64,000 nucleotides of DNA from Propioniciclava coleopterorum. GTDB taxonomy: Bacteria > Actinomycetota > Actinomycetes > Propionibacteriales > Propionibacteriaceae. The stretch is from assembly GCF_011393335.1 (NCBI RefSeq), contig NZ_CP049865.1:1320722-1384721 (forward strand). The letters are read 5' to 3'. The notes under the pieces were generated by a model, which was not told where the DNA came from, ran no database searches, and worked only from the letters and a program-made list of their open reading frames with translations. A program made the position numbers and the translations under genes. Of the stretch, positions 2,950-61,564 are shown piece by piece. Positions within the stretch are counted from its first letter, which is position 1. Every line of letters begins with the position of its first letter.

Positions 2950-2963
2950 ACCGGACGGCCCGG

Positions 2964-3226: not shown

Positions 3227-3227
3227 C

Positions 3228-13139: not shown

Positions 13140-13163
13140 CGCCTTGGAGGAGGCGAGGCACCA

Positions 13164-14735: not shown

Positions 14736-14906
14736 CGCCCCGGCCCAGCCGGCCCCGGTCGCGCGGGCGGCGTCCCCTCGGTCGACCCTCCGCGCGGCCC
14801 CCGGCCGACACCGCCTCCATGCCCCGAACCACCCGGCCGAACACTCGGAGCGCGCCTCGTTCGCAATGAGAGCGTCAGGGACCGCATCCCCGTTCGTCAT
14901 GCCCCC

Positions 14907-14956
14907 GGGTATACCTCCGCGCTGCCGCTGTGCCCCTTTTCTACCCCCCGGCGGAT
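14907..14956 (+). promoter_or_regulatory. Two-part upstream element of nrfHA (copy 1 of 2)
   Basis: GGGTATACC at 14907-14915 and CCCCCGGCGGAT ending at 14956. The distance from the first G of GGGTATACC to the first G of GGCGGAT is 43 bases. The same two blocks at the same distance occur upstream of the cytochrome maturation operon (17058-17107). GGTATACC is a self-complementary octamer. The remainder of 14736-15026 holds no gene. Confidence 0.55.
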
Positions 14957-15026
14957 GGGATCGGGCTTGCTTCCTCGAAAGGATGGCGGGGTCGAGATCT
15001 GTCCACACGTGCGAAAGGAGGGGCAG

Positions 15027-15521: not shown

Positions 15522-15526
15522 TCCAG

Positions 15527-25300: not shown

Positions 25301-26825
25301 CCGGTCGGCTGCTGCCCTGCGGCGAGCGGGCCGTCCTCGCCGAACTCGACGACCTCACCGCGGCGCTCGCGCTGTACCGCACCCTGGACGGCGCCCGGCC
25401 TGCCGGGACGGAGGACCTGGTGCTGGGCGCCCGCACCGTTTTGCTCGTCGTCGCCGCGGCGTCCCAGCTCCCGGACGCCGCCGCCGCGGTCGCGGCCCTG
25501 CTCGCCCACCCGCCGGCCGCGACCGACTGGGACGACGGCGCCGAGGTCGTCCTCGACGTCCGCTACGACGGCCCCGACCTGGCCGAGGTCGCCGGGCTCA
25601 CCGGGCTGGACGCCGACGGCGTCGTGGCGGCCCACATGTCGACGCCCTGGCGGGTCGCGTTCGGGGGTTCGCCCCCGGCTTCGCCTACCTGGTCGGCGGC
25701 GATCCGCGGCTGGAGGTGCCCCGCAAGACCGAGCCCCGCACCAGCGTCCCGGCGGGATCGGTCGGCCTGGCCGGGGCGTTCTCCGGGGTCTACCCGCGCA
25801 GCTCGCCGGGCGGCTGGCAGCTGATCGGCACCACCGACGCCCTCCTCTGGGACGCCGCCCGCCCCGACCCCGCCCTGCTCACCCCCGGGACCCGCGTCCG
25901 GTTCCGGGCGGTGGACGCCCTCGCGCCCGCGCCGCCCGTCGCCGCCCCCACGCCCGCGACGGCTGCGCGCTCGCTGGAGGTGCTCCGCACCGGCCCGCTC
26001 GCCACTATCCAGGACGGCGGTCGTCCCGGATGGGCGCACGTGGGGGTCACCGGGTCGGGCGCGGCCGACCGGGGCGCGCTGCGCCTGGCGAACCGCCTCG
26101 TGGGCAACCCCCAGGACGCCGCGGCGATCGAGACGGTCCTGGGCGGCCTGGCCCTCACCGCGACCGACTCCCTCGCGCTCGCGGTCACCGGCGCGCACGC
26201 GCCCGCCACGCTCAACGGCGCCCCGGTCCCACACGCCGTCGTGCTCTACCTCACTGCGGGCGACACCCTCGCCCTCGGGACGCCGGCTGCTGGGCTGCGC
26301 AGCTACGTGGCCGTCTCGGGCGGCTGCGTCACCGACGAGGTCCTGGGCGGCCGCAGCACCGACACGCTCTCGGGCCTGGGGCCCGCGCCGCTGCGCCCCG
26401 GCGACCGCGTCCCGGTGGGCGAGCAGCCCGCCGTCGAGACCCTGCACCCGCAGGCGCCGCCGCTGCACGCCGACGCCGAGGTGCTCGTCCTGGAGGTGCT
26501 GCCCGGGCCCCGCAGCCACTGGCTCGCCGATCTGGACGCGCTGGGCGGCCCCTGGCGGGTCACGGACCAGGCCGACCGAGTCGGCGTCCGCTTGGCCGGG
26601 ACGCCCCTGGCGCGTCGCCCGGAGTTCGTCGGGGTCGAGCTGCCGAGCGAGGGCGTCGTGCGCGGTGCCATCCAGCTGCCGGGCAGCGGCCAGCCGGTCG
26701 TCTTCGGGCCGGATCACCCGGTGACGGGCGGCTACCCGGTGATCGGGGTGGTCACCGAGGCGTCCTGCGACCTGCTGGCGCAGGCGCGTCCCGGGCAGGC
26801 CGTGGTGCTCCGCCCGCCGCGCTGA
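25297..26825 (+). CDS. pxpBC: Fused 5-oxoprolinase subunits PxpB-PxpC (apparent frameshift in PxpB part)
   Basis: GTG 25297 begins [19 protein letters not shown] (PxpB/KipI). Near 25670 the frame breaks inside the PxpB signature. One G added to the G5 run gives [14 protein letters not shown], the expected GF-PGF-YL motif. The frame then passes without a stop through a Pro/Ala linker ([15 protein letters not shown]) into PxpC/Kip[50 protein letters not shown], and [12 protein letters not shown]. About 509 residues. Fused PxpBC proteins are known in actinobacteria, sometimes labelled urea amidolyase-like. Confidence 0.85.
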
Positions 26826-33618: not shown

Positions 33619-34613
33619 TCAGGCGGTGCCGCGGGGGATCACGAACAACGACAACGGGTCGGGCTCGAGGGGAGCCACCTCGTCACCGGTGAGGCGCATC
33701 GCGGTGTCGAACAGTTCGTCGGCCCGCTCGTCCATCGGGACCCGGATCGTGCTCAGCGGGGGGTCGAGCAGCGTCGCGTACGCCTCGTCGTCCACCCCGA
33801 TCACGGCGAGGTCGCGCGGCACGACGAGTCCCAGCTCGCGGGCGGCGGCCAGCACCAGCGCGGCGACGGCGTCGTTGTAGGCGCCGACGGCCGTCACGGG
33901 GTCCTCGCCTGTGCGCCACTCGCGCAGGATCGCGGCCGCATCCGCAGCCGTCCCGGCGGGCGGCAGTTCCACCGCGGCGATCCGCGGGACCGGCAGGTCG
34001 CGCTCCTCGCACGCGGTGAGGAAACCCTCCCTGCGCGGCTCGGCCCAGGTGGCCACGTTGGCGCCGCTGGCCATCAGGTAGCCGAGCCGGCGGTGCCCCG
34101 GTCGGCGAGGTAGCCGACCTGCAGCGCTGAGACCTCGTCCTCGCGGCGGGACATCGTCTCGGAGCCCGCGGTGCACGCGTAGGGGATGTGGTGGGCGGCC
34201 AGCGCGCCCAGGTCTGCGTCGGGCAGCGGGTAGAACGACATGACGACGCGCGGCTGCAGATGCGTGATCGCCCCCGCCAGCGGCTGGCCGGGGCCGGACT
34301 GCCAGACCAGCAGCGTCAGCCCACGCTCGGCGGCCCGCTCCGCGAGCCGCGCGGTCGCCAGGCCCACGTTGCTGCCGTACGGGGTGTGCCGCACGACGAA
34401 GAGCACGACGGTGGAGCGCCCGGAACGCAGCGCCCGCGCGGCCGGGTTCGGGGTGTAGCCGAGCGACTCGGCCGCGGCGCGGACCCGGGCCCGGGTCGAC
34501 TCGGGGATCGACTGACGCGTCGAGCCGTTGAGGACGTAGCTGACGGTGGCGCGCGAGACGCCGGCCACCCGCGCGACGTCGGCGCTGGTCGGTCGCCTGG
34601 TGTCCACGGTCAT
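33619..34613 (-). CDS. LacI family transcriptional regulator (apparent frameshift)
   Basis: GTG/ATG region at 34613 begins MTVDTRRPTSADVARVAGVS followed by RATVSYVLNGST, the LacI helix-turn-helix and hinge. Near 34097 the frame breaks. One G (C on the plus strand, C4 run 34096-34099) gives LADRGHRRLGYLMASGANVA and continues through the sugar-binding fold (TAVGAYNDAVAALVLAAARE, VIGVDDEAYATLLDPPLSTI) to 33619. The repaired length is about 331 residues. No metabolic gene is adjacent on its strand, so the target is not evident. The LacI protein at 60.5 kb is a better candidate for the rhamnose genes. Confidence 0.83.
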
Positions 34614-38624: not shown

Positions 38625-39449
38625 TCAGACGAGCGTAGTGGGCACGTCGAACGCTGCCACCACCCGGCGCAGTTCCTCCTCCGAGAGGCCCTGCGCGCGG
38701 CCGCCGGTGGCGAGGTTCTTGTACTCGTACAGCGCACCGGTCTCGGCGTACTCGATCTTGTCGCAGGCGCCCAGCGGCGAGGCGTCCGAGCGGGCCATGA
38801 CGCCGTGCTTGGCCCACAGGACGATCTGGTGCTCGCGCAGCCCGGCGACGTTGTTCTCCATCAGCTCCGCCGACCCGGGGACCATGAACGGCAGGTACTT
38901 CACGCCCTCGGGCAGCTGCACGATGGTCTCGGGCTCCCACCGCAGGATCGCCCGGTTGAGCTCGGCGGTGCCCTGGAACTCGGGGATGTGCGAGAGCAGC
39001 GTCAGGTGCGGGGGCTGCGCGTGGATGACCGCGTGGAACGCCAGGCCCCGCCGGGCCACCTGGTCCTCGTGGACCGCCAGGTGGGAGTTGAACTCGCTGG
39101 TGGGCCGCTCGAAGTTGCCGCTCGCCTTGTAGTGCAGGGTCCCGGTGAGCCCGCCGTCGTGCACGACGACCGCACCGACGTTGCGGGCGGGCTGGGCGTG
39201 CACGCCGCGCAGGCGGCAGCCGGAGCCGGTGACCAGCACGGTGTAGCCGGCCAGGTGGGGCGCGGCCAGCGGCAACTCGATCTCGCGTCGCGCGTCGAAG
39301 AACTCCCCGAGGTCGACCTCCCAGTCGAAGACGACGGACAGGTTGCCCGCGCCGGCCTCGACGGCGTCGATGCCGTTGAGGCGTCGGCCGGCGGCGCCCA
39401 TGCTCTCGAGCACTTCGGCCAGGGTCTCGGGATGCGATGTGGTGCCCAT
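38625..39449 (-). CDS. rhaD: Rhamnulose-1-phosphate aldolase, class II aldolase family
   Basis: 274 residues from ATG 39449, the same length as E. coli RhaD. Matching segments include AGAGNLSVVFDWEV, VLVTGSGCRLRGVHAQPARNVG, PTSEFNSHLAVHED, FHAVIHAQPPHLTLLSHI (metal-binding His pair) and VLWAKHGVMARS. It splits L-rhamnulose-1-phosphate to dihydroxyacetone phosphate and L-lactaldehyde with a divalent metal. A LacI-type palindrome is centred about 29 bases upstream. A second, larger aldolase with the same reaction (rhaEW) is at 56.8-58.9 kb. Confidence 0.88.
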   Translation of the reverse strand: MGTTSHPETLAEVLESMGAAGRRLNGIDAVEAGAGNLSVVFDWEVDLGEFFDARREIELPLAAPHLAGYTVLVTGSGCRLRGVHAQPARNVGAVVVHDGGLTGTLHYKASGNFERPTSEFNSHLAVHEDQVARRGLAFHAVIHAQPPHLTLLSHIPEFQGTAELNRAILRWEPETIVQLPEGVKYLPFMVPGSAELMENNVAGLREHQIVLWAKHGVMARSDASPLGACDKIEYAETGALYEYKNLATGGRAQGLSEEELRRVVAAFDVPTTLV

Positions 39450-39469: not shown

Positions 39470-39485
39470 TATGAATCGTTTCATA
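39470..39485 (-). promoter_or_regulatory. LacI-type operator in front of rhaD
   Basis: TATGAATCGTTTCATA; on the minus strand its core is TGAAACGATTCA. Its near edge is 21 bases upstream of the rhaD start. Related sites stand at 46618-46631 and 60442-60453. Confidence 0.65.
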
Positions 39486-43715: not shown

Positions 43716-43744
43716 ACAGTTCAAACGCCGCTAGGGTGGTTGCC

Positions 43745-44277
43745 ATGTCCGCGCGCGACCGCGTCCTCGACTCGTTCGAGACGATCCTGACCACCGAGGG
43801 GGAACGGGCGGCGACGCTCGACGCGGTCGCCGCCCACGCCGGCGTGTCCAAGGGCGGGCTGCTGTACCACTTCCCCAACCGGGAGGCGCTCGCCGCCGGC
43901 CTGCTCGAGCGCCTGCGCTCGCTCGCCGACGTCGACCTGGCCGCCATGGCCGCCGCCCCGAGGGCCCGTCGATCTACTACGTCTCCACGTCGTCCAACGT
44001 CGGCTCGGCGTTCGACCGCGCCCTCATCGCGGCGACCCGGCTGGGCATGGAGAAGCACCCGGACGCCAGCGCGACGATCCGCGACATCCAGCAGCGATGG
44101 CTGGCGCTGATCCGAGCCGAGGTCGGCGCCGACGGCGTCGCCGCCGCCATCATGCTGCTGGGCGACGGCATGTACTACAACGCGGTGTTCGGCGGCGAGG
44201 GCTTCGCCTCCCCCGCCCGCAACATGGACGCCCTCCTGGCCGTCGTCCGCGACCTCATCGCCACCGCGCGCGCCTGA
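43745..44277 (+). CDS. TetR family regulator of the MFS exporter (apparent frameshift)
   Basis: ATG 43745, with TAGGGT seven bases upstream. The helix-turn-helix reads AATLDAVAAHAGVSKGGLLY followed by HFPNREALAAGLLERL. Near 43957 the frame breaks. One C added to the C4 run gives AAPEGPSIYYVSTSSNVGSA and continues through LIAATRLGMEKHPDASATI to 44277, about 177 residues. It is most similar to QacR/SmvR-like repressors by layout. The operator at 43702-43715 is its likely target. Confidence 0.82.
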
Positions 44278-44335: not shown

Positions 44336-46596
44336 TCAGATCGCCGCAGCCGCCGGCACCGTCCGGGCGTGCGCGCCCGCCCCGACCTCCAGGCGCGTCC
44401 CGTCCGGCAGGACCCAGTCGGCGACGATTCCCGCGGGCACCTCGGCGGTGACCTCGATCGTGCCGTCCGGGAGCCGCTTCCACCCCGACCGGATCGTGCC
44501 GACCGGGGCGTCCAGGGACGCCGCGGCCCAGTCCAGCCCGGGGCCGGGGACCGGCTCCAGCCGGACGCGCGCGTAGCCGGGCTCGGCCGGCCGGATGCCT
44601 CCGACGACCTGGTAGAGCCAGTCGGCGACCGCGCCCAGCGCGTAGTGGTTGAAGCTGGTCATCTGGCCGGGGTTGATCGAGCCGTCGGGCAGCATCGAGT
44701 CCCAGCGCTCCCACACGGTGGTCGCGCCCATCGAGATCGGGTAGAGCCACGAGGGGCACTCCTCCTCAAGCAGCAGCCGGTAGGCGTCGGCGACGTGGCC
44801 GGTCTCCGACAGCGCCCAGGTGACGTACGGCGTGCCGGCGAAGCCGGTGCTGACGCGGTAGCCGGCCCCGCGGACCAGCTCGGCGAGCCGCTCGCCGGCC
44901 CGCGCGCGGGCGGGTCCGTCCAGCAGGCCGAAGGCGATGGCGACCGCGTACACGGTGGCGCAGTCGGAGCGGATGCGCCCGGCGTCGTCGACGTAGTGCT
45001 CGATGAAGGCGGCCCGCACCCGGTCGGCCAGGGCGCGCCAGCGGGCGGCGTCGGCGTCCCGGCCGAGCACGGCGGCGGCGTCCGCGGCGAAGGACGCCGA
45101 GCGGAACAGGCTGGCCGTCGCGACCACGGCCGGGTCGGCCTTGGCCTGCTCCGGGGCGTCCGCGGGTGCGTCCGGGTCGAGCCAGTCACCCAGGATCTGG
45201 TCGGCCTCCCACAGGCCGGTCGGGCTGAGGACCGCCTCCACCGACTCAAGGTGGGCGACCATGCCGGGGTAGTGCTCGGCTAGCCGGCCGCGGTCGCCGT
45301 AGGCGTGCCACAGCGCCTCGGGCACCCAGCATGCCGCGTCCGCCCACACGGCCTGGATCCCGGGGAAGCCCTGCCAGCCGGCGTTCGCGCGGTGCCGCAG
45401 GACCTGGGGGACGATGATCGGGACGAACCCCTCCTGCTCGGTCTCGTGACGTAGGTCGAGCAGCCACTTGTGCAGGAAGTCGGCCACGTCGAACTGGAAG
45501 CACGCCGTCGCCGCGTAGGCGGCGATGTCGCCGGTCCAGCCCAGCCGCTCGTCGCGCTGGGGACAGTCGGTGGGCACGTCCAGGAAGTTGCCCTTCTGGC
45601 CCCATACCGAGTTGTGGACCAGCTGGTTCACGCCGGGATGGCTGCACGCGAAGGTCCCGGTCGGACGCAGGTCGCTGTGCACGACCACGGCCACCAGGTC
45701 CTCGGGTCGCAGGTCTCCGGGCCAGCCGGTGACCTCGGCGTACCGGAAGCCGTGGAAGGTCATGGTCGGCTCGACGGCGTCCTCGCCCCGGAGAGGGTGA
45801 TCGTGTCGGTCTGTCGGGCGGCGCGCAACGGCCGGACGCCGAGTTCGCCGTCCTCCAGCACCTCGGCGTGGCGCAGCGTTAGGGTGGCGCCGCGCTCGCC
45901 CCGCACCGTGAAGCGCAGCCACCCGACGAGGTTCTGCCCGAAGTCGACCAGCGTCGCACCGGACGGCGAGGTCCACACCTTCACCGGCGCGATCACCTCG
46001 TGCCGCCCGATCAGCGGCCCGGTCTGCGGGACGAGCGCGGCGGCGTCCAGGGACCCCAGCGCCACCGGCTGGTCGGGCTCGGGGACGTGGGTGAAGTCGA
46101 GGTGCTGGCCGTGGTACAGGTTGTTGGCGCGCACGGGCCCCGTGGTCGCCAGCCAGGACGCGTCGGTCACCACCCGCTGCTCGTGACCGTCGGAGAACCG
46201 GACGATCAGCGACGCGGCGACGCCGGTGTCGGGCCCGTAGTCGGCCTGGGCGTCGGCGAACCCGAGCTTGCCGCGCCACCAGCCGTTGCCCACGGTGAAG
46301 GCCAGAACTGCGCCGTCGCGCACCAGGTCGGTGACGTCGAAGGACTGCACCTGCAGCCGCCACTCGTACGAGGTCCAGCCCGGGTTGAGCACCGACGCGC
46401 TGACCGGGTGGCCGTCGATCGTGGCCTCGTAGACGCCATGGGCGGTGGCGGCCAGCCGCGCGGAGACGACCGGGCCGTGCCCGGCATCCAGCTTCAGGGT
46501 GGTGTGCAGGACGGACGCCGGCGCGTCGGGGCGCGGGTCGTCCAGGGGGTGACGGATCAGGGCGGCGGTGGCGAGATCGGCGACGGCGTCGGTCAT
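44336..46596 (-). CDS. Alpha-L-rhamnosidase, GH78 family (apparent frameshift)
   Basis: ATG 46596. The N-terminal part is beta-rich (TSYEWRLQVQSFDVTDLVRD, GNGWWRGKLGF). Near 45787 the frame breaks. One G added (C4 run 45786-45789) gives TLSGGEDAVEPTMTFHGFRY. The catalytic barrel carries SVWGQKGNFLDVPTDCPQRD and ERLGWTGDIAAY, with the acidic residues of GH78, then WERWDSMLPDGS. The C-terminal beta domain follows. About 753 residues. No signal peptide is seen, so it likely acts on imported rhamnosides. A LacI-type operator stands 22 bases upstream, like the other rhamnose genes. Confidence 0.87.
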
Positions 46597-46617: not shown

Positions 46618-46631
46618 TTGAAACGAGTCAA
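46618..46631 (-). promoter_or_regulatory. LacI-type operator in front of the GH78 gene
   Basis: TTGAAACGAGTCAA, differing from the rhaM site by one core base plus flanks. Its near edge is 22 bases upstream of the start codon, the same position as at rhaD and rhaM. Confidence 0.6.
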
Positions 46632-50065: not shown

Positions 50066-50080
50066 TTAAACGTTTCATAA
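50066..50080. promoter_or_regulatory. LacI-like half-matching site between divergent promoters
   Basis: TTAAACGTTTCATAA shares the AAACGTTTCA core with the rhaM operator. Its place, 70 bases from one start and 150 from the other, differs from the 19-22 base position of the rhamnose sites, so membership of that regulon is doubtful. Confidence 0.3.
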
Positions 50081-50229: not shown

Positions 50230-51540
50230 ATGTCCGACACCGCGACGACATCGAGTGGCAGACGATCGATCTTCAGCATCCCCGGCGTCTCGGGCTCGCA
50301 GTTGCGGGCCGCGGCGGTCGGGAACCTCATCGAGTGGTTCGACTGGAACGCGTACGCGTTCCTGGCGGTCTACTTCTCCAGCCAGTTCTTCCCCAAGGAC
50401 AGTCCCCCGCTCGTCGCCCTCCTGGGCACGTTCGGGATCATGGCCGTGGGCTTCATCATGCGGCCGATCTCGGGGCTCATCATCGGCTGGGTGGCCGACC
50501 GGCTGGGCCGCAAGGTCGCCATGCTCATCACCGTGTGGGGCATGGGCATCGCCAGCCTGCTGATCGGTCTGGCGCCCACCTTCGAGCAGGTCGGCGTCCT
50601 CGCGCCGGTCATCCTGCTGCTCGCGCGGGCCACCCAGGGCATCTGCATCGGCGGCGAGTACGCGTCGATGTCGGCGTTCGCGATGGAGATGACGCCGACG
50701 GGCAAGCGCGGCTTCATCGCCGGCATCCTCGGCGGCGTGGCCGCGCTGGGCCAGGTGGCCGTCACGCTCATCATCGTGCTGCTGGCCAACATCCTGAGCC
50801 ACGAGCAGATGGTCGAGTTCGGCTGGCGCATCGTCTTCGTCGTCGGCGGCCTGCTGTCCATCTGGGGCATCATCCTGCGCCGCGGCATGCACGACACCGT
50901 CGAGAAGGCCGATCGGCCCCGCACGCGCAGCACCCTCGGCTCGATGTTCCGGCCGATGCGCGAGCACCCGAAGGAGACGGTCCGGGTCATCGGGCTCACC
51001 ATCGGCTTCACCGCGATGGTCTACGCCTGGGGCGCCTACATGCCGACCTACGCGACCACCTACGCCGGCCTGGATCCGCGCTTCACCATGATCGCGATGC
51101 TGGTCACCTCGCTGACGCTCATCGTGGCCACCCCGCTGGCCGGCATCCTGTCGGACAAGGTGGGACGTCGACCCACGATGCTCGCCGCGGGCATCATCCT
51201 CGCGGTCGCGACCGTGCCGGCGCTGGGCCTGCTCAACGATCAGTTGTGGCGCCTCATCCTCATCCAGGCGGCGGGCAACCTGGTGATCGCGCTGCTGCAG
51301 GCCAGCTCGATGCCCGCCTACTCCGAGATGTTCCCGACGCAGTTCCGGGCGGCCGGTTTCGGCTTCCCGTACGCGCTGACCGTTGGCCTGGTGGGCGGCA
51401 CCGTCCCGATGGTCGGCACCCAGCTCGCCTCCATGGGGGCGGGCCACATGTTCCCGTGGTACCTCGTCGCCCTGATCGTCATCTCGATCTTCTTCTACGC
51501 CACGATGAAGGAGACCGCCTTCCAGGACATGCCCGACTGA
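50230..51540 (+). CDS. MFS transporter, metabolite:H+ symporter (MHS) family
   Basis: 436 residues from ATG 50230 with GGGAGCAACC upstream. MHS features: AVGNLIEWFDWNAYAFLAVY in helix 1, RPISGLIIGWVADRLGRKVA (motif A), ARATQGICIGGEYASMSAFA, and LSDKVGRRPTML in the second half. Twelve helices are expected. Known members import organic acids, betaines and related compounds with protons. It is divergent from the DauR-like regulator, the PatB-like enzyme and the amidohydrolase, so it most likely feeds them. Confidence 0.87.
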   Translation: MSDTATTSSGRRSIFSIPGVSGSQLRAAAVGNLIEWFDWNAYAFLAVYFSSQFFPKDSPPLVALLGTFGIMAVGFIMRPISGLIIGWVADRLGRKVAMLITVWGMGIASLLIGLAPTFEQVGVLAPVILLLARATQGICIGGEYASMSAFAMEMTPTGKRGFIAGILGGVAALGQVAVTLIIVLLANILSHEQMVEFGWRIVFVVGGLLSIWGIILRRGMHDTVEKADRPRTRSTLGSMFRPMREHPKETVRVIGLTIGFTAMVYAWGAYMPTYATTYAGLDPRFTMIAMLVTSLTLIVATPLAGILSDKVGRRPTMLAAGIILAVATVPALGLLNDQLWRLILIQAAGNLVIALLQASSMPAYSEMFPTQFRAAGFGFPYALTVGLVGGTVPMVGTQLASMGAGHMFPWYLVALIVISIFFYATMKETAFQDMPD

Positions 51541-51703: not shown

Positions 51704-52432
51704 TCAGATCACGGCGCGGATCAGCAGGATCACCGCGGCCAGGGTCGAGAACCCCACCACGGCCGCCCCGAAGGCGGTGTCGCTGAAGCGGCGTCCGCCC
51801 AGGATGGACGCCCCGAACCCGAGCAGCGTGGCCGGCAGCATCGACAGCCCCACCATCCACGAGGTCGCACTGAGGCGTCCGACCGCGGCCAGGGACGCCA
51901 GCGTCACGACGGTGCTCATCAGGAAGTAGACGGCCATGGTGGCGCGCGCCCGGGAGGGCGTGTCGTTGCGCAGCACGATCGCGATCGGCGGGCCGCCGAT
52001 GGACGCCGTGGTGCCGCCCAGGCTCGAGATCGCGCCTGCGCTGATCAGGGTCGCCGGGCCGCGGCGCGGCTCGATCCGGAACAGCGGCAGCACCGCGACC
52101 AGCAGCACCACGATGCCGACGATCACCTGCAGCACGCGCGCCGGCACCGCCGCGACGATCCAGGCGCCGAGCAGCGTGGCCGGCAGCGTCCCGACCATGA
52201 TCCAGCCCAGCGCGCGCCAGTCCACGGACCGGCCCTCGCGGGCGAGCGTCATGAACGGCAGCGGGATGGATCCGATGATGAGCGCCGCGGGGATCAGCTC
52301 GGGCGCGAGGAACGCCACGACGGGCGCGGCGATCACGCCGAAACCGAAACCGATGTAGCCCTGCACCGCGGCGCCCACGAAGGCGAGCACGAGCAGCACC
52401 ACGAAGACGCCGGTCGAGACTCCGACGATCAC
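51704..52432 (-). CDS. TSUP (TauE/SafE) family membrane transporter, end of the rha-lut operon
   Basis: 242 residues from GTG 52432, which overlaps the lutC stop as GTGA. Seven to eight helices. Family repeats AAVQGYIGFGFGVIAAPVVA and SSLGGTTASIGGPPIAIVL each carry the Gly/Pro motif of TSUP proteins. TSUP members move sulfite, sulfoacetate and other organic anions. Overlap with the lactate genes suggests an organic-acid substrate such as lactate, which is inference only. Confidence 0.83.
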   Translation of the reverse strand: MIVGVSTGVFVVLLVLAFVGAAVQGYIGFGFGVIAAPVVAFLAPELIPAALIIGSIPLPFMTLAREGRSVDWRALGWIMVGTLPATLLGAWIVAAVPARVLQVIVGIVVLLVAVLPLFRIEPRRGPATLISAGAISSLGGTTASIGGPPIAIVLRNDTPSRARATMAVYFLMSTVVTLASLAAVGRLSATSWMVGLSMLPATLLGFGASILGGRRFSDTAFGAAVVGFSTLAAVILLIRAVI

Positions 52433-53073
52433 AGGCGCCCGCCCACCAGGACGACGTGCAGCGTCCGGGGTCCGTGCACGCCCTCGACCCGGCTGAGTTC
52501 GATGTCGGAGGTGGCGGACGGCCCGCTGATCCAGGTCAGCGGGGAGCCGTCGCCGATCGCGGCGGTGAGGCGTGCGACCGCCTCGGGGACGCCGCTGACG
52601 ACCTGGTCGGCGCGCACGACGCACACGTGCAGGTCGGGGACGAGCGTGAGGGCGCGGCGGCCCTGGTCGGGTCCGTGGTCGAGCACGATCGTGCCGGTCT
52701 CGGCGATGCCGACGGCCGATGCGGTCACGACGGCGTCGATCCGGTCGAGTTCGCGGCGGTCCAGCGGCGGGTCATCGTCGTGCACCGTCAAGCCGGCCGC
52801 GGCGATCGCATCCCGCCAGGACGCGGGGACGCCCGCGGGCAGGACGACCGAGGCCGCCTCGCCCAGCCCCGCCACGACGGCGGCGGGCACGTCGTCGGGC
52901 GCGACCCGGACGACGGTGGCCCGGTAGTCGGCGACGCGTTCGTCGAAGACGTCCAGGACGTCGCCCGCGAGCTCCACGGGACGGCCGTAGGCCCAGCCCG
53001 CGGAGCGTCCGGGCGCGCGCTCGTCGCCGAGCGCGGCGGCGATCCGCCCGAGGATGACCTCACGGCTGCCCAT
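52429..53073 (-). CDS. lutC: Lactate utilization protein C (LutC/LldG family)
   Basis: 214 residues from ATG 53073. DUF162 features: MGSREVILGRIAAALGD, AVVTASAVGIAETGTIVLD, RALTLVPDLHVCVVRADQVV and a final ISGPSATSDIELSRVEGVHGP. With LutA and LutB it oxidises L-lactate to pyruvate. It overlaps the end of lutB by 14 bases and is overlapped by the TSUP gene, so the four are tightly coupled. Confidence 0.9.
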   Translation of the reverse strand: MGSREVILGRIAAALGDERAPGRSAGWAYGRPVELAGDVLDVFDERVADYRATVVRVAPDDVPAAVVAGLGEAASVVLPAGVPASWRDAIAAAGLTVHDDDPPLDRRELDRIDAVVTASAVGIAETGTIVLDHGPDQGRRALTLVPDLHVCVVRADQVVSGVPEAVARLTAAIGDGSPLTWISGPSATSDIELSRVEGVHGPRTLHVVLVGGRL

Positions 53074-54579
53074 CGTTCCCCTTCCCCTGCGTCGCGCCGC
53101 GCTCCCGCCGCCACCAGTCCCGGAACGTCTCCGTGGGGGGCTTGGGCAGGTCGCGGGCGGTGGTCCAATGCGCGGCCGGGCCGGGGACCGGCAGCGGGCC
53201 GATGACGGGCTTGGGCCAGAGGCGTCCGGCGAGTTCGACGCCCTTCTCGGCCAGCCCGAGGCGGGCGCCGGCGCCCATGAGCCAGCCGCCGCCCTTCATG
53301 ACCAGCGCCTCCGCGGTGGGGCGCTTGGCCGTCTCCACGACGCGGTTGCGCAGGTGGACGAGCACCTCGGGGATGTCGATCCGCACCGGGCACACCTCGA
53401 AGCAGGCCCCGCACAGCGAGGACGCGTACGGCAGCGACCGGTCAATGTCGGACTCCAGCCCGCGCAGCATCGGCGTCAGGATCGCGCCGATGGGCCCCGG
53501 GTAGACCGAGCCGTAGGCGTGGCCGCCGGTGCGCTCGTAGACGGGGCAGATGTTGAGGCAGGCCGAGCACCGGATGCAGCGCAGCGCCTGGCGTCCGACC
53601 TTGTCGGCCAGCACCTTGGTGCGGCCGTTGTCGACCAGCACGACGTGTACGTTCTGCGGCCCGTCGCCCTCGCGGACGCCGGTCCACATGGACGTGTACG
53701 GGTTCATCCGCTCGGCGGTCGAGGAGCGCGGCAGCAGCTGCAGGAAGACCTCGAGGTCGGACGCCGTGGGCAGCACCTTCTCGATGCCCACCACCGAGAT
53801 CAGCGTCTCGGGCAGCGTCAGGCACATCCGGCCGTTGCCCTCGGACTCGACCACCACCAGCGTCCCGGTGTCGGCGATCGCGAAGTTGGCCCCGACACCG
53901 CCACCTTGGCGCGCAGGAACTTCTCCCGCAGGTGGACGCGCGCCGCCCCGGCCAGCTCGCCGGGCTCATCGGTGAGCCCCGCGGGCGCGGGCTCGCCGTA
54001 GTTGCCCATCTCGGCGTTGAAGATCTCGCGCACCTCGGAGCGGTTGCGGTGGATCGCGGGCACGAGGATGTGGCTGGGTCGGTCGTGACCCAGCTGGACG
54101 ATCAGCTCGGCCAGGTCGGTCTCCCAGGACGCGATCCCGGCCGCTTCGAGGGCCTCGTTGAGGTCGATCTCCTGGGTGGCCATCGACTTCACCTTGACGA
54201 CCTCGTCGGCGCCCTGCTCGCGCACCAGGTCGATGACGATCCGGTTGGCCTCCTCGGCGTCGGTGGCCCAGTGGACGACCGCGCCGGCGCGGGTGAGCGA
54301 CTCCTCGAGCTGCAGCAGGTAGGTGTCCAGGTGCGCCAGGACGTCGTCCTTGATCGCCTCGCCGGCCAGCCGCATCTCCTCCCAGTTCGGGACCTCGGCC
54401 ACGGCGTTGGCCCGCTTGTCGCGGATGGTCGTGGTGGCGTGCTTGAGGTTGCGCCGCAGCTGGGAGTCGGCGACGGCCTTGGCGGCGTTCTTGTCGAACT
54501 TCGGCATCCCGATGAACGTGCCGGGCGGCGGCGCCGGGGTGAGGCGTCCGGCGTCGGGGCGGCGGAGCGGGGCGTTCAT
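53060..54579 (-). CDS. lutB: Lactate utilization iron-sulfur protein LutB (apparent frameshift)
   Basis: ATG 54579 overlaps the lutA stop as ATGA. The N-terminal DUF162-like region includes ADEVVKVKSMATQEIDLNEAL and PAIHRNRSEVREIF. Near 53891 the frame breaks. One G added (C4 run 53890-53893) gives KVAVSGANFAIADTGTLVV, the expected family stretch. Two iron-sulfur motifs follow: CIRCSACLNICPVY and SSLCGACFEVCPVRID. The repaired protein has about 506 residues, normal for LutB. It carries electrons from lactate oxidation. Confidence 0.87.
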
Positions 54580-55331
54580 GCGACCGCCTCGCCGGTCTCC
54601 GTGCCGGCGAGGATCTCCGCCAGGTGGATGGGCCGGACGCCCGTCTGCAGCCGGCTGAGCAGGCCGCCGATGTGCATCAGGCAGGAGTTGTCGCCGGCGA
54701 CGAGGTATTCGGCCCCGGTGTCGAGCACCGCCCGCACCTTGTCCGAGCCCATCGCGACGGAGACGTCGGGGTTCTTCACCGAGAAGGTGCCCCCGAAGCC
54801 GCAGCACTGCTGGGCGTCGGGCAGGTCGAGCAGCGTGAGCCCGCGGACGGCCTGCAGCAGGCGGTAAGGGCGGTCCCCCACCTTCGTGACGCGCAGCGAG
54901 TGGCACGTCGGGTGGTAGGTGACCCGGTGCGGGAAGTAGGCGCCCACGTCGGTGGTGCCCAGCACGTCCACGATGAACTCGCTCAGCTCGTAGGTCTTGG
55001 CGACCACGTCGGCGACGCCGGCGCGCAGGGCCGGGCTGCCGTCACGGGCGGCGAGCATCGGGTGCTGGTCGCGGACCGAGCCGACGCACGACCCGGACGG
55101 GCCGACGATGTAGTCGTAGTCGGCGAAGGCGTCGACGTAGTTGCGCACCGACCCCATGGCCTCATCGAAGTAGCCGGTGTTGGTGAACATCTGGCCGCAG
55201 CAGCTCTGGCTCAGCGGGAACTCCACCGTGCAGCCGAGCCGCTCCAGCAGCGCGACGACCGCCTTCGGGGTCGACGGGAACATGGCGTCGTTCACGCAGG
55301 TGGCGAACAGGGCCACGGTCGGTCCGCTCAT
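54576..55331 (-). CDS. lutA: Lactate utilization protein A (cysteine-rich CCG domain)
   Basis: 251 residues from ATG 55331 with AAGGGAGG upstream. Two CCG domains: LSQSCCGQMFTNTGY and DAQQCCGFGGTFSVKN, with accessory Cys in FATCVNDAMFP and SGSCVGSV. These bind an iron-sulfur cluster of the heterodisulfide-reductase type. It begins 50 bases after the rhaB stop. A TTGACC box in that gap may be an extra internal promoter, but there is no terminator. Confidence 0.9.
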   Translation of the reverse strand: MSGPTVALFATCVNDAMFPSTPKAVVALLERLGCTVEFPLSQSCCGQMFTNTGYFDEAMGSVRNYVDAFADYDYIVGPSGSCVGSVRDQHPMLAARDGSPALRAGVADVVAKTYELSEFIVDVLGTTDVGAYFPHRVTYHPTCHSLRVTKVGDRPYRLLQAVRGLTLLDLPDAQQCCGFGGTFSVKNPDVSVAMGSDKVRAVLDTGAEYLVAGDNSCLMHIGGLLSRLQTGVRPIHLAEILAGTETGEAVA

Positions 55332-55381
55332 GGTCCTCCCTTGTCGTCGTCGTTCGACTCTGGTACGAGCCCGGTGATTGG

Positions 55382-56803
55382 TCAACTGGTTGGCACGAGG
55401 TGGCCGGGTTCGTGGCGGCGCGGGCTCGTCGAGCGGGCGACGAGGTCGCGCAGGTCCGCCAGGCCGCCGGGCAGGCCCAAGCCGCGGGCCTGGGCCAGGA
55501 CGTTGCCCAGCGCGGTCGCCTCGACCGGGCCGGCGAGCACCGGGACGCCGGCGCGTGCGGCCGTCCGGGCGCACAGAAGTTCGTTCAACGAGCCGCCGCC
55601 GACGATGTGGATCTGCGCGATCGGGATCCCGGAGAGTTCCCCGGCCAGCAGCGCGGTGCGCGCGAAGGCGTCCGCGAGGCTCTCCAGGATCAGCCGGACC
55701 AGCGCGGGCTGCGAGGCGGGGACGGGCAGGCCACGCTCGGTCAGCCAGGACGCGATCCTCGCGGGCATGTCGCCGGGCGGCAGGAAGCGGGCGTCGTCGA
55801 CGTCGAAGAGGTGCGCGGGCTCCGGCTCGGCGGTGGCCGCCGCGAGAACGTCCGTCAGGTCGACGGGCCGGCCCTCGCGCTCCCAGCCGCGCAGGGTCTC
55901 GGTGAGGATCCACAGCCCCATCACGTTGCGCAGGAAGCGGGTGGTGCCGTCCACGCCGCCCTCGTTGGTGAAGTTGGCCTCCCGGGCGGCGTCGGTGAGG
56001 ATCGGCGCCGGCGTCTCGACGCCGACCAGCCCCCACGTGCCGCACGAGATGTAGGCGGCCCGGGTGGGGTCCATCGGCACGGCCAGCACGGCGGCGGCCG
56101 TGTCGTGGCTGGGCGCCGCGAACACCGGGACGGCCGCGCCGACCATCTCCGCGGCGTGCCCGGTCAGCGCGCCGATCCGGTCCCCCGGCTGCACGAGCGG
56201 CCCGAACAGGGACGCGGGGATGCCGAGGCGTCCCATCAGGTCGGTGTCCCAGGTGCCGGTGCGCGGGTCGAGCAGGCCGGTGCTGGACGCGTTGGTCACC
56301 TCGTTGACCCGCTCCCCGGTCAGCCAGAACGCGAGCAGGTCCGGCAGCATCAGGAACCGCTCGGCGCCCAGCCCCGACGGGGTCTCGGCGGCGAGCTGGT
56401 AGAGGGTGTTGAAGGGCAGGAACTGCAGCCCGTTGCGCCCGTACAACTCGGCGAACGGCACCACCGCGTGCACCGCCTCGACGCCGCGGGCGCCGCGCTC
56501 GTCGCGGTAGGCGTACGGCAGCCCGACCAGGGCGTCGCCGCGCAGCAACCCGTAGTCGACGGCCCACGAGTCGATGCCGATGCCGTCCAGCGGTGCGGAC
56601 GCCGCGGCCGCGCGCAGGCCGTCCAACGCGGACGCGTAGAGGTGCAGCAGGTCCCAGTGCAGGCCATCGGGCAGGCGGACCGGCTCATGGGCGAACCGGG
56701 CCACCTGCTCCAAGGCGATGCCGTCGGCCGACACCCGGCCGAGCATGACGCGCCCGCTGGTCGCTCCGAGATCGACCGCGGCGACCGTGACGGGCGCGCT
56801 CAT
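55382..56803 (-). CDS. rhaB: Rhamnulokinase
   Basis: 473 residues from ATG 56803. FGGY carbohydrate kinase layout: VAAVDLGATSGRVMLGRV (phosphate loop), IGIDSWAVDYGLL (catalytic Asp), NEVTNASSTGLLDPRTGTWD, PSHDTAAAVLAVP, YISCGTWGLVGVE and IHIVGGGSLNELLCARTA. It phosphorylates L-rhamnulose at C1. It lies 12 bases after the aldolase/dehydrogenase gene in the same operon. Confidence 0.93.
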   Translation of the reverse strand: MSAPVTVAAVDLGATSGRVMLGRVSADGIALEQVARFAHEPVRLPDGLHWDLLHLYASALDGLRAAAASAPLDGIGIDSWAVDYGLLRGDALVGLPYAYRDERGARGVEAVHAVVPFAELYGRNGLQFLPFNTLYQLAAETPSGLGAERFLMLPDLLAFWLTGERVNEVTNASSTGLLDPRTGTWDTDLMGRLGIPASLFGPLVQPGDRIGALTGHAAEMVGAAVPVFAAPSHDTAAAVLAVPMDPTRAAYISCGTWGLVGVETPAPILTDAAREANFTNEGGVDGTTRFLRNVMGLWILTETLRGWEREGRPVDLTDVLAAATAEPEPAHLFDVDDARFLPPGDMPARIASWLTERGLPVPASQPALVRLILESLADAFARTALLAGELSGIPIAQIHIVGGGSLNELLCARTAARAGVPVLAGPVEATALGNVLAQARGLGLPGGLADLRDLVARSTSPRRHEPGHLVPTS

Positions 56804-56815
56804 CTCTCCCCCGGC

Positions 56816-58852
56816 CTAGCGCAGGAACGCGGCCGCGACGCCGGCGTCCACCGGGACGTGCAGGCCGGTCGTGTGCGACAGGTCGGACGTGCACAGCACG
56901 AACGCCGCGTTGGCGATGTTCTCGGGCAGCACCTCGCGCTTGAGCAGGGTGCGCTGGGCGTAGTACTTGCCCAGGTCCTCCTCGGCGACGCCGTAGACGG
57001 CGGCGCGCTTGGCTCCCCAGCCGCCGGCGAAGATGCCCGATCCGCGGACCACGCCGTCGGGGTTGATGCCGTTGACCTTGACGCCGTGCTCGCCCAGCTC
57101 GGCGGCCAGCAGCCGCACCTGGTGCGCCTGGTCGGCCTTGGTGGCGGAGTAGGCGATGTTGTTCGGGCCGGCGAAGACCGAGTTCTTGGACGAGATGTAG
57201 AGGATGTCCCCGCCCAGCTTCTGCTCGATCAGCACCTTGGCGGCGGCGCGGGAGACCAGGAACGAGCCCTTGGCCATCACGTCGTGCTGCAGGTCCCAGT
57301 CGGCCTCGGTGGTCTCCAGCAGTGACTTGGAGAGCGACAGGCCGGCGTTGTTCACCACGATGTCCAGGCCGCCGAAGGCCAGCACGGTGGCGTCCACCGC
57401 GGCCTGCACCTGCTCGGCCGAGGTGACGTCGCACTGCAGCCCGATGGCGACGTCCGGGCCGCCGATCTCGGCGGCGGCCGCCTGCGCCTTGGCGAGGTCG
57501 AGGTCGGCGATGGCGACGCAGGCGCCCTCGGCCGCGAACCGGGCGGCGATGGCCTTGCCGATGCCGGACGCCGCGCCGGTGACCAGCGCGATCCGGGTGG
57601 CGAGCGGCTTGGGCTTGGGCATCCGCTGCAGCTTGGCCTCCTCCAGCGCCCAGTACTCGATGCGGAACTTCTCGGCCTCGTCGATGGGCGCGTACGTCGA
57701 CAGCGCCTCGGCGCCGCGCATCACGTTGATCGCGTTGACGTAGAACTCGCCGGCGACGCGGGCGGTCTGCTTGTTCGCGCCGTAGGAGAACATGCCCACG
57801 CCCGGGATCAGGATGATCAGTGGGTCGGCGCCGCGGATCGCGGGGCTGTCGGGGGTGGCGTTGCGCTCGTAGTAGCCGGCGTAGTCGGCACGGTACTCCT
57901 CGTGCAGGGTCTCCAGGCGGGCGATCGTGTCCTCGACCGAGGCGTCCGCGGGCAGGTCGAGCAGCATCGGCTTGACCTTGGTGCGCAGGAAGTGGTCGGG
58001 GCAGGACGTCCCGAGCTCGGCCAGCGCGGGCGCCTTCTCCGAGGCCAGGAACTCGAGCACGACGTCGGCGTCGGTGAAGTGGCCGACCATCGGACGGTCC
58101 TGGCTGGCGATCGCGCGCAGGGTTGGGGCCAGCGCGGCGGCCTTGGCCTTCCGCTCCGCCTCGGGCAGCGCCTCGAACCCGGCCCGGACGCCGCCGAACG
58201 GGTCGGCCTTGCCGTGCGCCGCGATGTGGTCCTCGGCGGTCTTGATGATCCACAGGGAGTTGGCCTCGGCCTCCTCCGAGGTGTCGCCCCACGCGGTGAT
58301 GCCGTGCCCGCCCAGGATCGTGCCGATCGCGGCCGGGTTGGCCTCCTTGATCGCGGCGATGTCCAGGCCGAGCTGGAAGCCCGGACGCCGCCACGGCACC
58401 CACACCACCTTGTCACCGAAGATCTGCGCCGTGAGCGCCTCGCCGTCGGCGGCCGTCGCGATGGCGATGCCGGAGTCGGGGTGGAGGTGGTCGACGTGGG
58501 CGGCGTCCACCAGGCCGTGCATGGCGGTGTCGATGGACGGCGCCGCCCCACCCTTGCCGTGCAGGCAGTAGTCGAAGGCCGCGACCATCTCGTCCTCGCG
58601 GTCGATGCCGGGATAAACGTCGACCAGGGCGCGCATCCGGTCCAGGCGCAGAACGGCCAGGCCCTCGGGCTTGAGGGTGCCCAGGTCGCCGCCCGAGCCC
58701 TTGACCCAGCACAGCTCGACGGGCTCGCCCGTGACGGGGTCGATCTCGGTGCCCTTGGCGGAGGTGTTGCCGCCGGCGTAGTTGGTGTTGCGGGGGTCGG
58801 CGCCCAGACGGTTGGAGCGCTCGATCAGCTGACGGACTGCTTCATTGACCAT
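56816..58852 (-). CDS. rhaEW: Bifunctional rhamnulose-1-phosphate aldolase / short-chain dehydrogenase (RhaEW)
   Basis: 678 residues from ATG 58852. The first about 400 residues are a class II aldolase domain (NTNYAGGNTSAKG, WVKGSGGDLGTL, VDHLHPDSGIAIA with metal-binding His, GGHGITAWGDTSEEAE). The rest is a short-chain dehydrogenase: ALVTGAASGIGKAIAARFAA, VVNNAGLSLSKS, and the catalytic YSATKAD. The aldolase yields dihydroxyacetone phosphate and L-lactaldehyde; the dehydrogenase oxidises the latter to L-lactate with NAD. That fits the lut genes further along the operon. Full normal length, no frameshift. Confidence 0.92.
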   Translation of the reverse strand: MVNEAVRQLIERSNRLGADPRNTNYAGGNTSAKGTEIDPVTGEPVELCWVKGSGGDLGTLKPEGLAVLRLDRMRALVDVYPGIDREDEMVAAFDYCLHGKGGAAPSIDTAMHGLVDAAHVDHLHPDSGIAIATAADGEALTAQIFGDKVVWVPWRRPGFQLGLDIAAIKEANPAAIGTILGGHGITAWGDTSEEAEANSLWIIKTAEDHIAAHGKADPFGGVRAGFEALPEAERKAKAAALAPTLRAIASQDRPMVGHFTDADVVLEFLASEKAPALAELGTSCPDHFLRTKVKPMLLDLPADASVEDTIARLETLHEEYRADYAGYYERNATPDSPAIRGADPLIILIPGVGMFSYGANKQTARVAGEFYVNAINVMRGAEALSTYAPIDEAEKFRIEYWALEEAKLQRMPKPKPLATRIALVTGAASGIGKAIAARFAAEGACVAIADLDLAKAQAAAAEIGGPDVAIGLQCDVTSAEQVQAAVDATVLAFGGLDIVVNNAGLSLSKSLLETTEADWDLQHDVMAKGSFLVSRAAAKVLIEQKLGGDILYISSKNSVFAGPNNIAYSATKADQAHQVRLLAAELGEHGVKVNGINPDGVVRGSGIFAGGWGAKRAAVYGVAEEDLGKYYAQRTLLKREVLPENIANAAFVLCTSDLSHTTGLHVPVDAGVAAAFLR

Positions 58853-58892
58853 GGTTGGTGGTTTTCCTGTCGTGGGTGAGGGACGGGAGGGC

Positions 58893-60059
58893 TCAGGCGC
58901 CCCAGGACGCCTGGGTGCCGCCGACGCGGTCGGCCTCGATCTTCTCCTGGTAACCGGAGGCCAGGTAGGCGGCCATCGGGTCGCCGGGCAGGCCGCGTTC
59001 TCCGCGCCAGGCGGCCAGCTGGGAGCGGACGTCGGTGTAGAAGGCGTCCATGAGGACCTGATTGGCGCCGAGCACGTCGCCGTTCTCCTGGGCGACCTTC
59101 AGCGCGTCGGCGTCGACGGCCAGCGCGCGGGCCAGCATCTCCTGGACGTTGAGCACCGACCGGATCTGGCCGGGGATCTTCTTCTCGATGTTGTGGCACT
59201 GGTCGAGCATGAACACCACGCCCGAGTCGGCCTTCAGGCCGCCGCCGCGCACGACCTCGTACAGGATGCGGAACAGCTGGAACGGGTCGGCCGCGCCCAC
59301 GATCAGGTCGTCGTCGGCGTAGAACCGGCTGTTGAAGTCGAAGCTGCCCAGGCGTCCGAGGCGCAGCAGCTGCATGACGATGAACTCGATGTTCGTGCCG
59401 GGGGCGTGGTGGCCGGTGTCGAGGCAGACCGAGGCCTGCTCGCCCAGCGCGAGGCACTGCACCAGCGAGGTGCCCCAGTCCGGGACGTCGGTGTGGTAGA
59501 ACGCCGGCTCGAAGAACTTGTACTCCAGGACGAGGCGCTGGTCGGCGTCCAGGGCGGCGTAGATCTCGGCGAGCCCCTCGGCGAGCCGGTCCTGCCGGCC
59601 GCGCAGGTCGTCCTGGCCCGGGTAGTTGGTGCCGTCGGCGAGCCAGATCTTCAGATCCTTCGAGCCGGTGGCGCGCATGATCTCGATGCACTCGAGGTGG
59701 TGGTCGATCGCGGCGCGGCGGACGGCGGCGTCGGTGTGGCACAGCGAACCCAGCTTGTACTGGTCGTCCTGGAACGTGTTGGAGTTGATCGTGCCGATCC
59801 GCACGCCGCGGTCGGCGGCGTGCGCCGCCAGGGCGTCCCAGTCGTCCACCTTGTCCCACGGGATGTGCAGCGCGACGGCCGGGGCGAGCCCGGTGAAGGC
59901 GTTGACCTGGGCGGCGTCGTCGATCTTCTCGAACGGGTCGCGCGGGCCGCCGGGGCCGGCGAAGACCTTGAACCGCGTGCCGGAGTTGCCGTACGCCCAC
60001 GAGGGCACCTCGATCGCCAGGGTGGCGAGGGTGTCGAGCTGGTCGGTGGTCAAAGCCAT
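58893..60059 (-). CDS. rhaI: L-rhamnose isomerase (RhaI type)
   Basis: 388 residues from ATG 60059, one base after the rhaM stop. Xylose-isomerase-like barrel of the RhaI group: VPSWAYGNSGTRFKVFAGPG, LHIPWDKVDDWDAL, LVLEYKFFEPAFYHTDVPDW (Glu/His metal ligands), CLDTGHHAPGTNIEFIV, SFDFNSRFYADDDLIVG. It converts L-rhamnose to L-rhamnulose with manganese or a similar metal. This is the Pseudomonas/actinobacterial form, unlike E. coli RhaA. Confidence 0.92.
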   Translation of the reverse strand: MALTTDQLDTLATLAIEVPSWAYGNSGTRFKVFAGPGGPRDPFEKIDDAAQVNAFTGLAPAVALHIPWDKVDDWDALAAHAADRGVRIGTINSNTFQDDQYKLGSLCHTDAAVRRAAIDHHLECIEIMRATGSKDLKIWLADGTNYPGQDDLRGRQDRLAEGLAEIYAALDADQRLVLEYKFFEPAFYHTDVPDWGTSLVQCLALGEQASVCLDTGHHAPGTNIEFIVMQLLRLGRLGSFDFNSRFYADDDLIVGAADPFQLFRILYEVVRGGGLKADSGVVFMLDQCHNIEKKIPGQIRSVLNVQEMLARALAVDADALKVAQENGDVLGANQVLMDAFYTDVRSQLAAWRGERGLPGDPMAAYLASGYQEKIEADRVGGTQASWGA

Positions 60060-60060
60060 G

Positions 60061-60423
60061 TCAGTCTCCTTGAGGGGCGGTCGGCAGCCCCGCCGCGCGT
60101 AGTTGGTCGTCGAGGTTGAAGATCTCCTCCAGGCGGAGGAACCCCTGGTCGGGCGGCAGGTCGAGGTCCACGAAGAACTCTCCCATCTCGGCCTGCCAGC
60201 GGGCGTTCACGTCCGTCGCCGCCATCGCGTCCTGCGCGGCGGCGAGGCTCTCGGTCTCCAGGTACCCGATGAGCAGCCCGTCAGGGCGCAGGAAGATCGA
60301 GTAGTTCCCCCAGCCGGTGTCGCGGAGCGCGGCGAGCATGTCGGGCCACACGGCGGCGTGCCGGGCCTTGTACTCCTCGAGGCGCTCGGGCCTGACCTGC
60401 AACTGGAAGCACACGCGCTCCAT
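60061..60423 (-). CDS. rhaM: L-rhamnose mutarotase
   Basis: 120 residues from ATG 60423 with AGGAGG upstream. RhaM traits: VCFQLQVRPERLEEYKARH (His in the active site), VWPDMLAALRDTGWGNYSIF and GYLETESLAAAQDAM. It interconverts the alpha and beta anomers of L-rhamnose so the isomerase gets its preferred form. It is the first gene of the eight-gene operon, with a perfect LacI-type palindrome 19 bases upstream of its start. Confidence 0.93.
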   Translation of the reverse strand: MERVCFQLQVRPERLEEYKARHAAVWPDMLAALRDTGWGNYSIFLRPDGLLIGYLETESLAAAQDAMAATDVNARWQAEMGEFFVDLDLPPDQGFLRLEEIFNLDDQLRAAGLPTAPQGD

Positions 60424-60441: not shown

Positions 60442-60453
60442 TGAAACGTTTCA
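60442..60453 (-). promoter_or_regulatory. LacI-type operator of the rha-lut operon
   Basis: TGAAACGTTTCA, a perfect 12-base palindrome with the AACGTT centre typical of LacI-family sites. It lies 19 bases before rhaM and 83 bases before the divergent lacI-type gene. Confidence 0.78.
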
Positions 60454-60535: not shown

Positions 60536-61564
60536 ATGGAACGCAACGGCGCCGTGGGCGTCAAGGAGGTCGCCGCGCGCGCCGGCGTCTCGGTCGGCAC
60601 CGTCTCCAACGTCCTCAACCGCCCCGCCAAGGTCTCCCAGGCCACCCGCGACAAAGTGCAGTCGGCGATCGACGAGCTCGGCTTCGTCCGCAACGAGGCG
60701 GCGCGCCAGCTCCGCGCGGGGATGAGCAACTGCGTCGGCCTCATCGTCCTCAACGCCACCAACCCCTTCTTCAACGACATCGCCGCCGGCGCCGAGGAGG
60801 TCGCCGCCGAGCACGGCGTCTCGGTGCTGGTCGGCAACAGCGCGGAGATCGAGTCCCGCGAGGACGCCTACCTCGCCCTGTTCGAGCAGCAGCGGGTCCG
60901 CGGCGTCCTGGTCAGCCCGATCGGCGCCGCCACCGCGAAGCTGGACCGGCTGAAGCGGCACGGCATCCCCAGCGTCATCGTCGACCGGGACATCACCGGC
61001 GGGTCCTACACGTCGGTCTCGGTCGACGACGTGACCGGCGGCGAGCTGGCCGTGCGCCACCTGGCCGAACTGGGCCACCGGCGCATCGCCTACGTCGCGG
61101 GGCCCGTGAACCTGCGGCAGGTCGTGGACCGCTGGGAGGGCGTCGAGCGCGAGTCGGCGCGGCACCCCGGCATGGAGGCCGAGTTCGTCCACGTCCCCAA
61201 CCTCACGATCCCCGCCGGGCTGCACGCCGGCCTGCAGATCCTCGACCGCCCGCGCGAGGAGTGGCCCACGGCGATCTTCGGCGCCAACGACCTCGTCGCC
61301 CTGGGGCTGCTGCAGGCGATGGCGGCCCGCGACGTCGACGTGCCCGGCGACATCGCCCTGATCGGCTACGACGACATCGAGTTCGCCGCCGGCGCCGCCA
61401 TCCCGCTCAGCTCGATCTCCCAGCCCCGCCACGAAATCGGACGCCGCGCGATGGAGCTGCTGCTGGCCACCACCGAGGCGCCCGACCGCCCCTCCGAGCG
61501 GATCGTGCTGCAACCGGAGCTCGTGGTGCGCCGCACGACCGACCCGGACGCGGCGCTGGACTGA
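60536..61564 (+). CDS. LacI family regulator, probable rhamnose repressor
   Basis: 342 residues from ATG 60536, with TACGAT exactly six bases upstream (leaderless). The helix-turn-helix is VKEVAARAGVSVGTVSNVLN. The sugar-binding fold contains LIVLNATNPFFNDIAAGAEE, IPSVIVDRDITGGSYTSVSV, HRRIAYVAGP, IFGANDLVALGLLQAM and LIGYDDIEFAAGA. It is divergent from the rhamnose operon and next to its operator, so L-rhamnose or a breakdown product is its likely inducer. The stop overlaps the ligase start (TGATG). Confidence 0.88.
   Translation: MERNGAVGVKEVAARAGVSVGTVSNVLNRPAKVSQATRDKVQSAIDELGFVRNEAARQLRAGMSNCVGLIVLNATNPFFNDIAAGAEEVAAEHGVSVLVGNSAEIESREDAYLALFEQQRVRGVLVSPIGAATAKLDRLKRHGIPSVIVDRDITGGSYTSVSVDDVTGGELAVRHLAELGHRRIAYVAGPVNLRQVVDRWEGVERESARHPGMEAEFVHVPNLTIPAGLHAGLQILDRPREEWPTAIFGANDLVALGLLQAMAARDVDVPGDIALIGYDDIEFAAGAAIPLSSISQPRHEIGRRAMELLLATTEAPDRPSERIVLQPELVVRRTTDPDAALD

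Follow-up and report, generated by a model that had tools for sequence, protein, structure and literature searches.

A window of 64,000 nucleotides from the genome of Propioniciclava coleopterorum (contig NZ_CP049865.1, positions 1,320,722 to 1,384,721; positions below count from the first letter of the window) carries eight consecutive minus-strand genes between 51704 and 60423 that appear to form a RhaR-type operon for use of the plant sugar L-rhamnose, extended by genes for L-lactate oxidation. The whole is probably transcribed as a single message, in which a break in lutB would be an indel of the assembly. We give this reading, which is drawn from the sequence, a probability of about 0.7. 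The linkage that leads from rhamnose to pyruvate is largely known, and the odd part of the operon is an appended gene for a membrane carrier of the TSUP (TauE/SafE) family.

The operon begins with rhaM (60061-60423), encoding L-rhamnose mutarotase (Pfam rhaM 101 bits, cut-off 23.4; TIGR02625 57.5 bits, below its cut-off of 99.6). It continues with rhaI (58893-60059) for L-rhamnose isomerase (TIGR02635 628 bits, cut-off 531), rhaEW (56816-58852) for a rhamnulose-1-phosphate aldolase fused to lactaldehyde dehydrogenase (TIGR02632 1022 bits, cut-off 568), and rhaB (55382-56803) for rhamnulokinase. RhaB contains FGGY domains and has TIGR02627 as its best match, at 395 bits and below the equivalog cut-off of 528. 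RhaI, RhaB and the RhaEW fusion thus adjoin as in actinobacterial rhamnose operons of the RhaR-RhaEW type. Then follow lutA (54576-55331), whose product, the Cys-rich (CCG) subunit of L-lactate oxidase, contains two CCG stretches, lutB in two parts (53818-54579 and 53060-53857), lutC (52429-53073) for the LUD subunit (Pfam LUD_dom 89.7 bits, cut-off 22.6), and the TSUP gene (51704-52432; GTG start; Pfam TauE 88 bits, cut-off 32.6). The two CCG stretches of LutA and the LUD domain of LutC are as expected for LutABC, which we take to be the same as LldEFG. The LUD, Fe-S and LutB_C parts of LutB are all present, but lie in two frames.

From rhaM to lutA, the genes are separated by gaps of 1, 40, 12 and 50 bases, and the remaining genes overlap (lutA/lutB by 4, lutB/lutC by 14 and lutC/TSUP by 4 bases). 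A preliminary description of this DNA had listed eight minus-strand genes; their coordinates, strand and gaps stood, but lutB is not a single open frame. Searches of Pfam and NCBIfam bore out its gene identities and pathway order. It had also seen no terminator between rhaB and lutA, in agreement with our search of the 50-base gap, where no terminator-like site was found and folding was no better than that of shuffled versions of the gap (z 0.67). A scan for sigma-70 promoters gave no sites, a result that is little informative at so high a G+C content. Scans of the window for Rfam families (gathering threshold) and tRNAs gave no matches. The break in lutB, an operator-like palindrome, a RhaD-type aldolase gene and a GH78-type rhamnosidase gene, all in this window, go beyond that earlier account.

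A gene for a LacI-family regulator with Pfam LacI and Peripla_BP_3 domains (60536-61564, plus strand), a candidate RhaR, diverges from the operon. Between it and rhaM, 18 bases before rhaM, lies the palindrome TGAAACGTTTCA (60442-60453), of which the genome contains a single exact copy. In the proposed mechanism, the regulator would bind this predicted site and repress the operon when rhamnose is absent. Upon its release, the genes from rhaM through rhaI, rhaEW, rhaB and lutABC to the TSUP gene would be transcribed as one message, as their spacing suggests. RhaM and RhaI would convert L-rhamnose to L-rhamnulose, RhaB would phosphorylate L-rhamnulose, and RhaEW would split the product into dihydroxyacetone phosphate and L-lactaldehyde and oxidise the latter to L-lactate. 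LutABC would then oxidise L-lactate to pyruvate. The steps assigned to RhaM, RhaI, RhaB, RhaEW and LutABC belong to the established knowledge of these families. The TSUP protein might carry lactate, pyruvate or another short organic acid, which is a guess.

The gene order was compared in 105 other loci, namely 25 loci from relatives and 80 named loci; the latter are the best 80 of at least 587 RhaEW relatives and therefore lean to close relatives. A lutA was found near rhaEW in 16 of the 105 loci (5 of 25 and 11 of 80, respectively). Random placement would give about 0.5 such cases in 80 loci, an expectation to be read with the relatedness of the loci to each other in mind. In five of the 80 named loci, and in none of the 25, lutA comes immediately after rhaB in the same orientation, the gap being estimated at -6 to 35 bases. 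These loci come from two Nocardioides (L073 and L120), one Zafaria (L087) and two Arthrobacter (L117 and L126). Like the window, they carry rhaB and then lutABC on one strand; unlike the window, they show no TSUP match and their lutB is one open frame. Nocardioides L073 further differs in having genes that read like parts of an ATP-binding cassette (ABC) carrier before rhaM. In three Geodermatophilus loci and in two members of the family Propionibacteriaceae, the lut genes flank the rha genes on the opposite side and are encoded on the opposite strand. Judged from these gene orders, the linkage of rhamnose and lactate-oxidation genes is real, recurrent and beyond chance. Thus, the comparison of gene order that the preliminary description had proposed, once run, showed a conserved linkage.

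Traces of the arrangement were also seen where rha genes are incomplete. Fragments of rhaB stand directly before lutA in G074, as does a 55-residue tail of rhaB in G028. G074 (L199, 6961-9598) also retains LacI, matched over its full length and accompanied by an exact operator, as well as a fragment of rhaM and a possible 21-residue trace of rhaEW (E 0.03). Both look like remnants of the rha-lut arrangement following loss of the rha genes. In a metagenome-assembled genome (MAG) of the Propionibacteriaceae (L090, 12566-15410), a RhaD-type gene (59%) directly follows rhaB, and a RhaW-like fragment precedes lutABC.

The operator recurs as well. The palindrome or one of two one-base variants occurs, exactly, at most 400 bases upstream of rhaM, rhaI, rhaEW or the LacI gene in 67 of the 105 loci (12 of 25 and 55 of 80), and a reversed-motif control occurs in none. 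In its LacI-type regulator and the predicted palindromic operator upstream, the operon agrees with the RhaR-RhaEW type, the motif having been derived here.

The activity of RhaEW yielding L-lactate has been shown by Rodionova et al. (2013; PMC3870299). In the parts of that paper that we compared, lldD and lldEFG belong to the RhaR regulons of certain RhaEW-bearing Actinomycetales and Rhodobacterales, and the authors inferred that the pathway probably leads on to pyruvate. That regulon and the window share the LacI-type regulator, RhaEW, lactate oxidase genes and a pathway to pyruvate. These parts describe regulon membership in certain genomes and do not mention the gene order of the window with its TSUP gene. 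Neither a close RhaFGHJ binding protein nor a close RhaY was found in the genome of the window. The preliminary description had supposed that no standard unit was known to combine rhamnose use with lactate oxidation in one transcript, a claim that falls because the linkage has been published at the regulon level (PMC3870299) and recurs in relatives. The TSUP appendage and a regulon with two aldolases, described below, look new.

Several observations weigh against a single operon from rhamnose to pyruvate. As sequenced, lutB is broken, and a search of the genome with the LUD family matched only the lutB and lutC of the window, leaving no second LutB. No lutA was visible in 89 of the 105 RhaEW loci, 11 of the 105 stretches being shorter than 18 kb. 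In the 16 loci with lut genes, the 400 nt upstream of lutA contain no exact operator; therefore, direct control of separate lut operons by RhaR is unsupported. TSUP matches (tblastn, E 1e-5) were absent from the 105 loci and from 14 further lut stretches. Known types of rhamnose carrier are only weakly matched in the genome: with the ABC binding protein of L034 as a query, the best match had 27% identity, and a RhaY-like protein of the major facilitator superfamily (MFS) from L079 gave partial matches of 27-36%.

The break in lutB can be read in two ways. The frame in which the gene starts (54579) runs to a stop at 53818 and contains the N-terminal LUD half (LUD_dom positions 3-91; TIGR00273 positions 2-190), and the rest of the LUD domain (LUD_dom positions 104-189), the Fe-S domain and LutB_C follow in another frame that ends at 53060 (TIGR00273 positions 201-432). 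The frame changes near 53,890, and a codon-model decoder places the change at about 53896. If lutB were a genuine recent pseudogene, the operon would be transcribed and catabolism would stop at L-lactate, which would be exported, perhaps through the TSUP protein. In favour of this, the break falls in the sole LutB that the genome search found, and the family Lactate_perm had no match in the genome. Moreover, the FMN_dh family gave three matches that are partial and, at 25-33 bits, barely above the cut-off of 24.9, and therefore offer no clear substitute of the LldD type. However, both halves of lutB retain high scores against TIGR00273, and in at least four other genes of the window the domains are divided between two frames. 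Over 400 kb per genome, taken as 20 stretches of 20 kb, same-strand frame changes with a stop more than 45 nt further on numbered 43 here versus 13 in a single control, the same-genus genome G001 (3.3 times the rate). In a stricter class with no start codon nearby, there were 19 versus 1; a start codon lies near the lutB event, which places it outside this class and speaks for a pseudogene. The elevated rate and the other two-frame genes suggest that indels are common in this assembly and that lutB probably contains one. Therefore, a pseudogene seems unlikely to us, and an assembly indel is most likely the cause of the break, likelier than a dead gene. Programmed frameshifting was rejected, since lutB is a single open frame in all 26 relatives' loci in which both halves were matched. 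Domains over two frames were seen in a carboxyltransferase-domain gene (25294-26783, change near 25,660), a LacI gene (33619-34613, change near 34,086) and a TetR gene (43742-44271, change near 43,958). The rhaB of the same-genus genome G011 (L272, 14175-15337) was matched as two pieces, apparently offset in frame.

It is also conceivable that lutABC is controlled separately, by a promoter or regulator of its own, and only happens to adjoin the rha genes. Gene orders in relatives would fit this: in L034 (G040), a GntR/FCD gene stands divergently before lutA, between lutA and the GH106 gene downstream of rhaB, and in the same-genus genome G002 the lut genes have the same LytR and DNA-ligase genes close by, with no rha match. 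In the window, however, no regulator gene separates rhaB from lutA and the 50 bases between them hold no terminator, and the rhaB-lutA spacing in the five other loci is just as tight. A separate lut unit is thus quite improbable here, and a common transcript, with lutB intact in the organism, remains our preferred reading.

The TSUP gene is outside the conserved rha-lut unit in the loci seen, according to the comparison. A lutC was scored in 25 other loci, of which 11 had no open frame passing the filter after it. None of the 23 with more than 1 kb beyond lutC had a TSUP gene there, though a very distant one could escape the search. The nearest relatives of the TSUP protein were found in G005 (55%) and in a second copy in this genome (51%). 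No solved structure was related to it by sequence at E 0.1, and within the open-licence literature no title or abstract connected a TSUP gene with rha or lut genes. The gene could be an unrelated recent arrival that uses the promoter of the operon and has no connection with lactate. This finds support in the missing TSUP matches near lut in relatives and in the position of the closest TSUP relatives beside other gene sets; against it stand the 4-base overlap with lutC and a report that ties a TSUP protein of Neisseria, via a mutant, to alpha-ketobutyrate use (PMC12671195). We regard such an arrival as a serious possibility, at somewhat below even odds. The link to alpha-ketobutyrate makes small organic acids possible TSUP substrates, and by this analogy transport of lactate or pyruvate by the TSUP protein of the operon is plausible.

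The TSUP relative of G005 (L193, 16344-17057) follows genes whose sequences suggest a 2-oxoacid dehydrogenase complex, and about 12 kb from it the same stretch has a distant RhaEW-like aldolase-dehydrogenase (33%; 2289-4325). The second copy in this genome (L194, G000:C1 about 2193520) follows a CoA-ligase-like gene, in a cluster that reads as containing a TRAP-type carrier and an amidohydrolase.

Operator-like sites elsewhere in the window suggest a wider regulon. The exact variant TGAATCGTTTCA (39472-39483) lies 22 bases before a gene for a RhaD-type rhamnulose-1-phosphate aldolase (38625-39449, minus strand; NF002963 152 bits, below the cut-off of 170). RhaD-type genes occur in 8 of the 96 genomes searched, this one included. 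The same-genus G011 (L272) resembles the window in its LacI (70%), RhaI and RhaD (both 84%), its LytR neighbour and its exact operators before rhaI and before RhaD, and differs in having no rhaM, RhaEW or lut match within the 20 kb read. Its RhaD gene thus has the same exact site upstream, and its rhaI-rhaB pair adjoins the LacI gene with an exact palindrome; together these support membership of RhaD in the regulon. The presumed regulon would then contain two aldolases, RhaEW and the RhaD type, that yield L-lactaldehyde. They might serve as two outlets, RhaEW and LutABC carrying the lower three carbons to pyruvate as long as there is a sink for electrons and the separately placed RhaD-type enzyme otherwise freeing L-lactaldehyde for reduction, with the TSUP protein as a dedicated overflow valve for lactate or pyruvate; we consider this unlikely.

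Two further sites have one mismatch each. One (46619-46630) lies 22 bases before the start of a GH78-type alpha-L-rhamnosidase gene (44366-46596, minus strand), which changes frame near 45,790 (Bac_rhamnosid positions 4-67 lie in one frame, 66-102 in another; the 6-hairpin domain scores 373 bits). The other (50066-50077) lies between a gene for an MFS metabolite:H+ symporter (50230-51540, plus strand, convergent with the operon; TIGR00883 330 bits, below the cut-off of 443) and a divergent gene for a YheO-like regulator. The window contains four operator-like sites with at most two mismatches, and since 6 of 100 shuffles also reach four, both one-mismatch sites call for caution. The MFS gene is a possible member of the regulon, and the site could instead serve the YheO-like regulator. 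The symporter next to this site may be a carrier for rhamnose or lactate; as a candidate rhamnose carrier, it belongs to a subfamily other than the RhaY-like one. An exact variant also occurs in Nocardioides L057 (at 12844), 48 bases before a long gene (12904-15975) that ends about 22 bases before lutA; the homologous-looking counterpart of this gene in L034 is assigned by Pfam to the GH106 rhamnosidases.

Full-length RhaEW with an identity of at least 72% is present in 26 of 57 genomes, counting this one, and in 1 of 13 from the same genus. Because of this distribution within the genus and a top match of 86% identity in G040 (Nocardioides), import of rhaEW from Nocardioides was considered. 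A tree of 32 of the available sequences does not group the RhaEW of the window with Nocardioides and thus gives such an import no support. RhaEW pairs with a Micropruina MAG (99/94), and RhaI pairs with that of the same-genus G011 (100/98).

The break in lutB is a caution against inferring the lactate ability of this strain from its assembly alone. The TSUP gene is a testable lead on the cargo of a poorly known carrier family. The rha-lut operon provides a clear case, in several actinobacterial families, of one operon that joins sugar breakdown to the oxidation of the resulting product, and relatives show a decayed stage of it.

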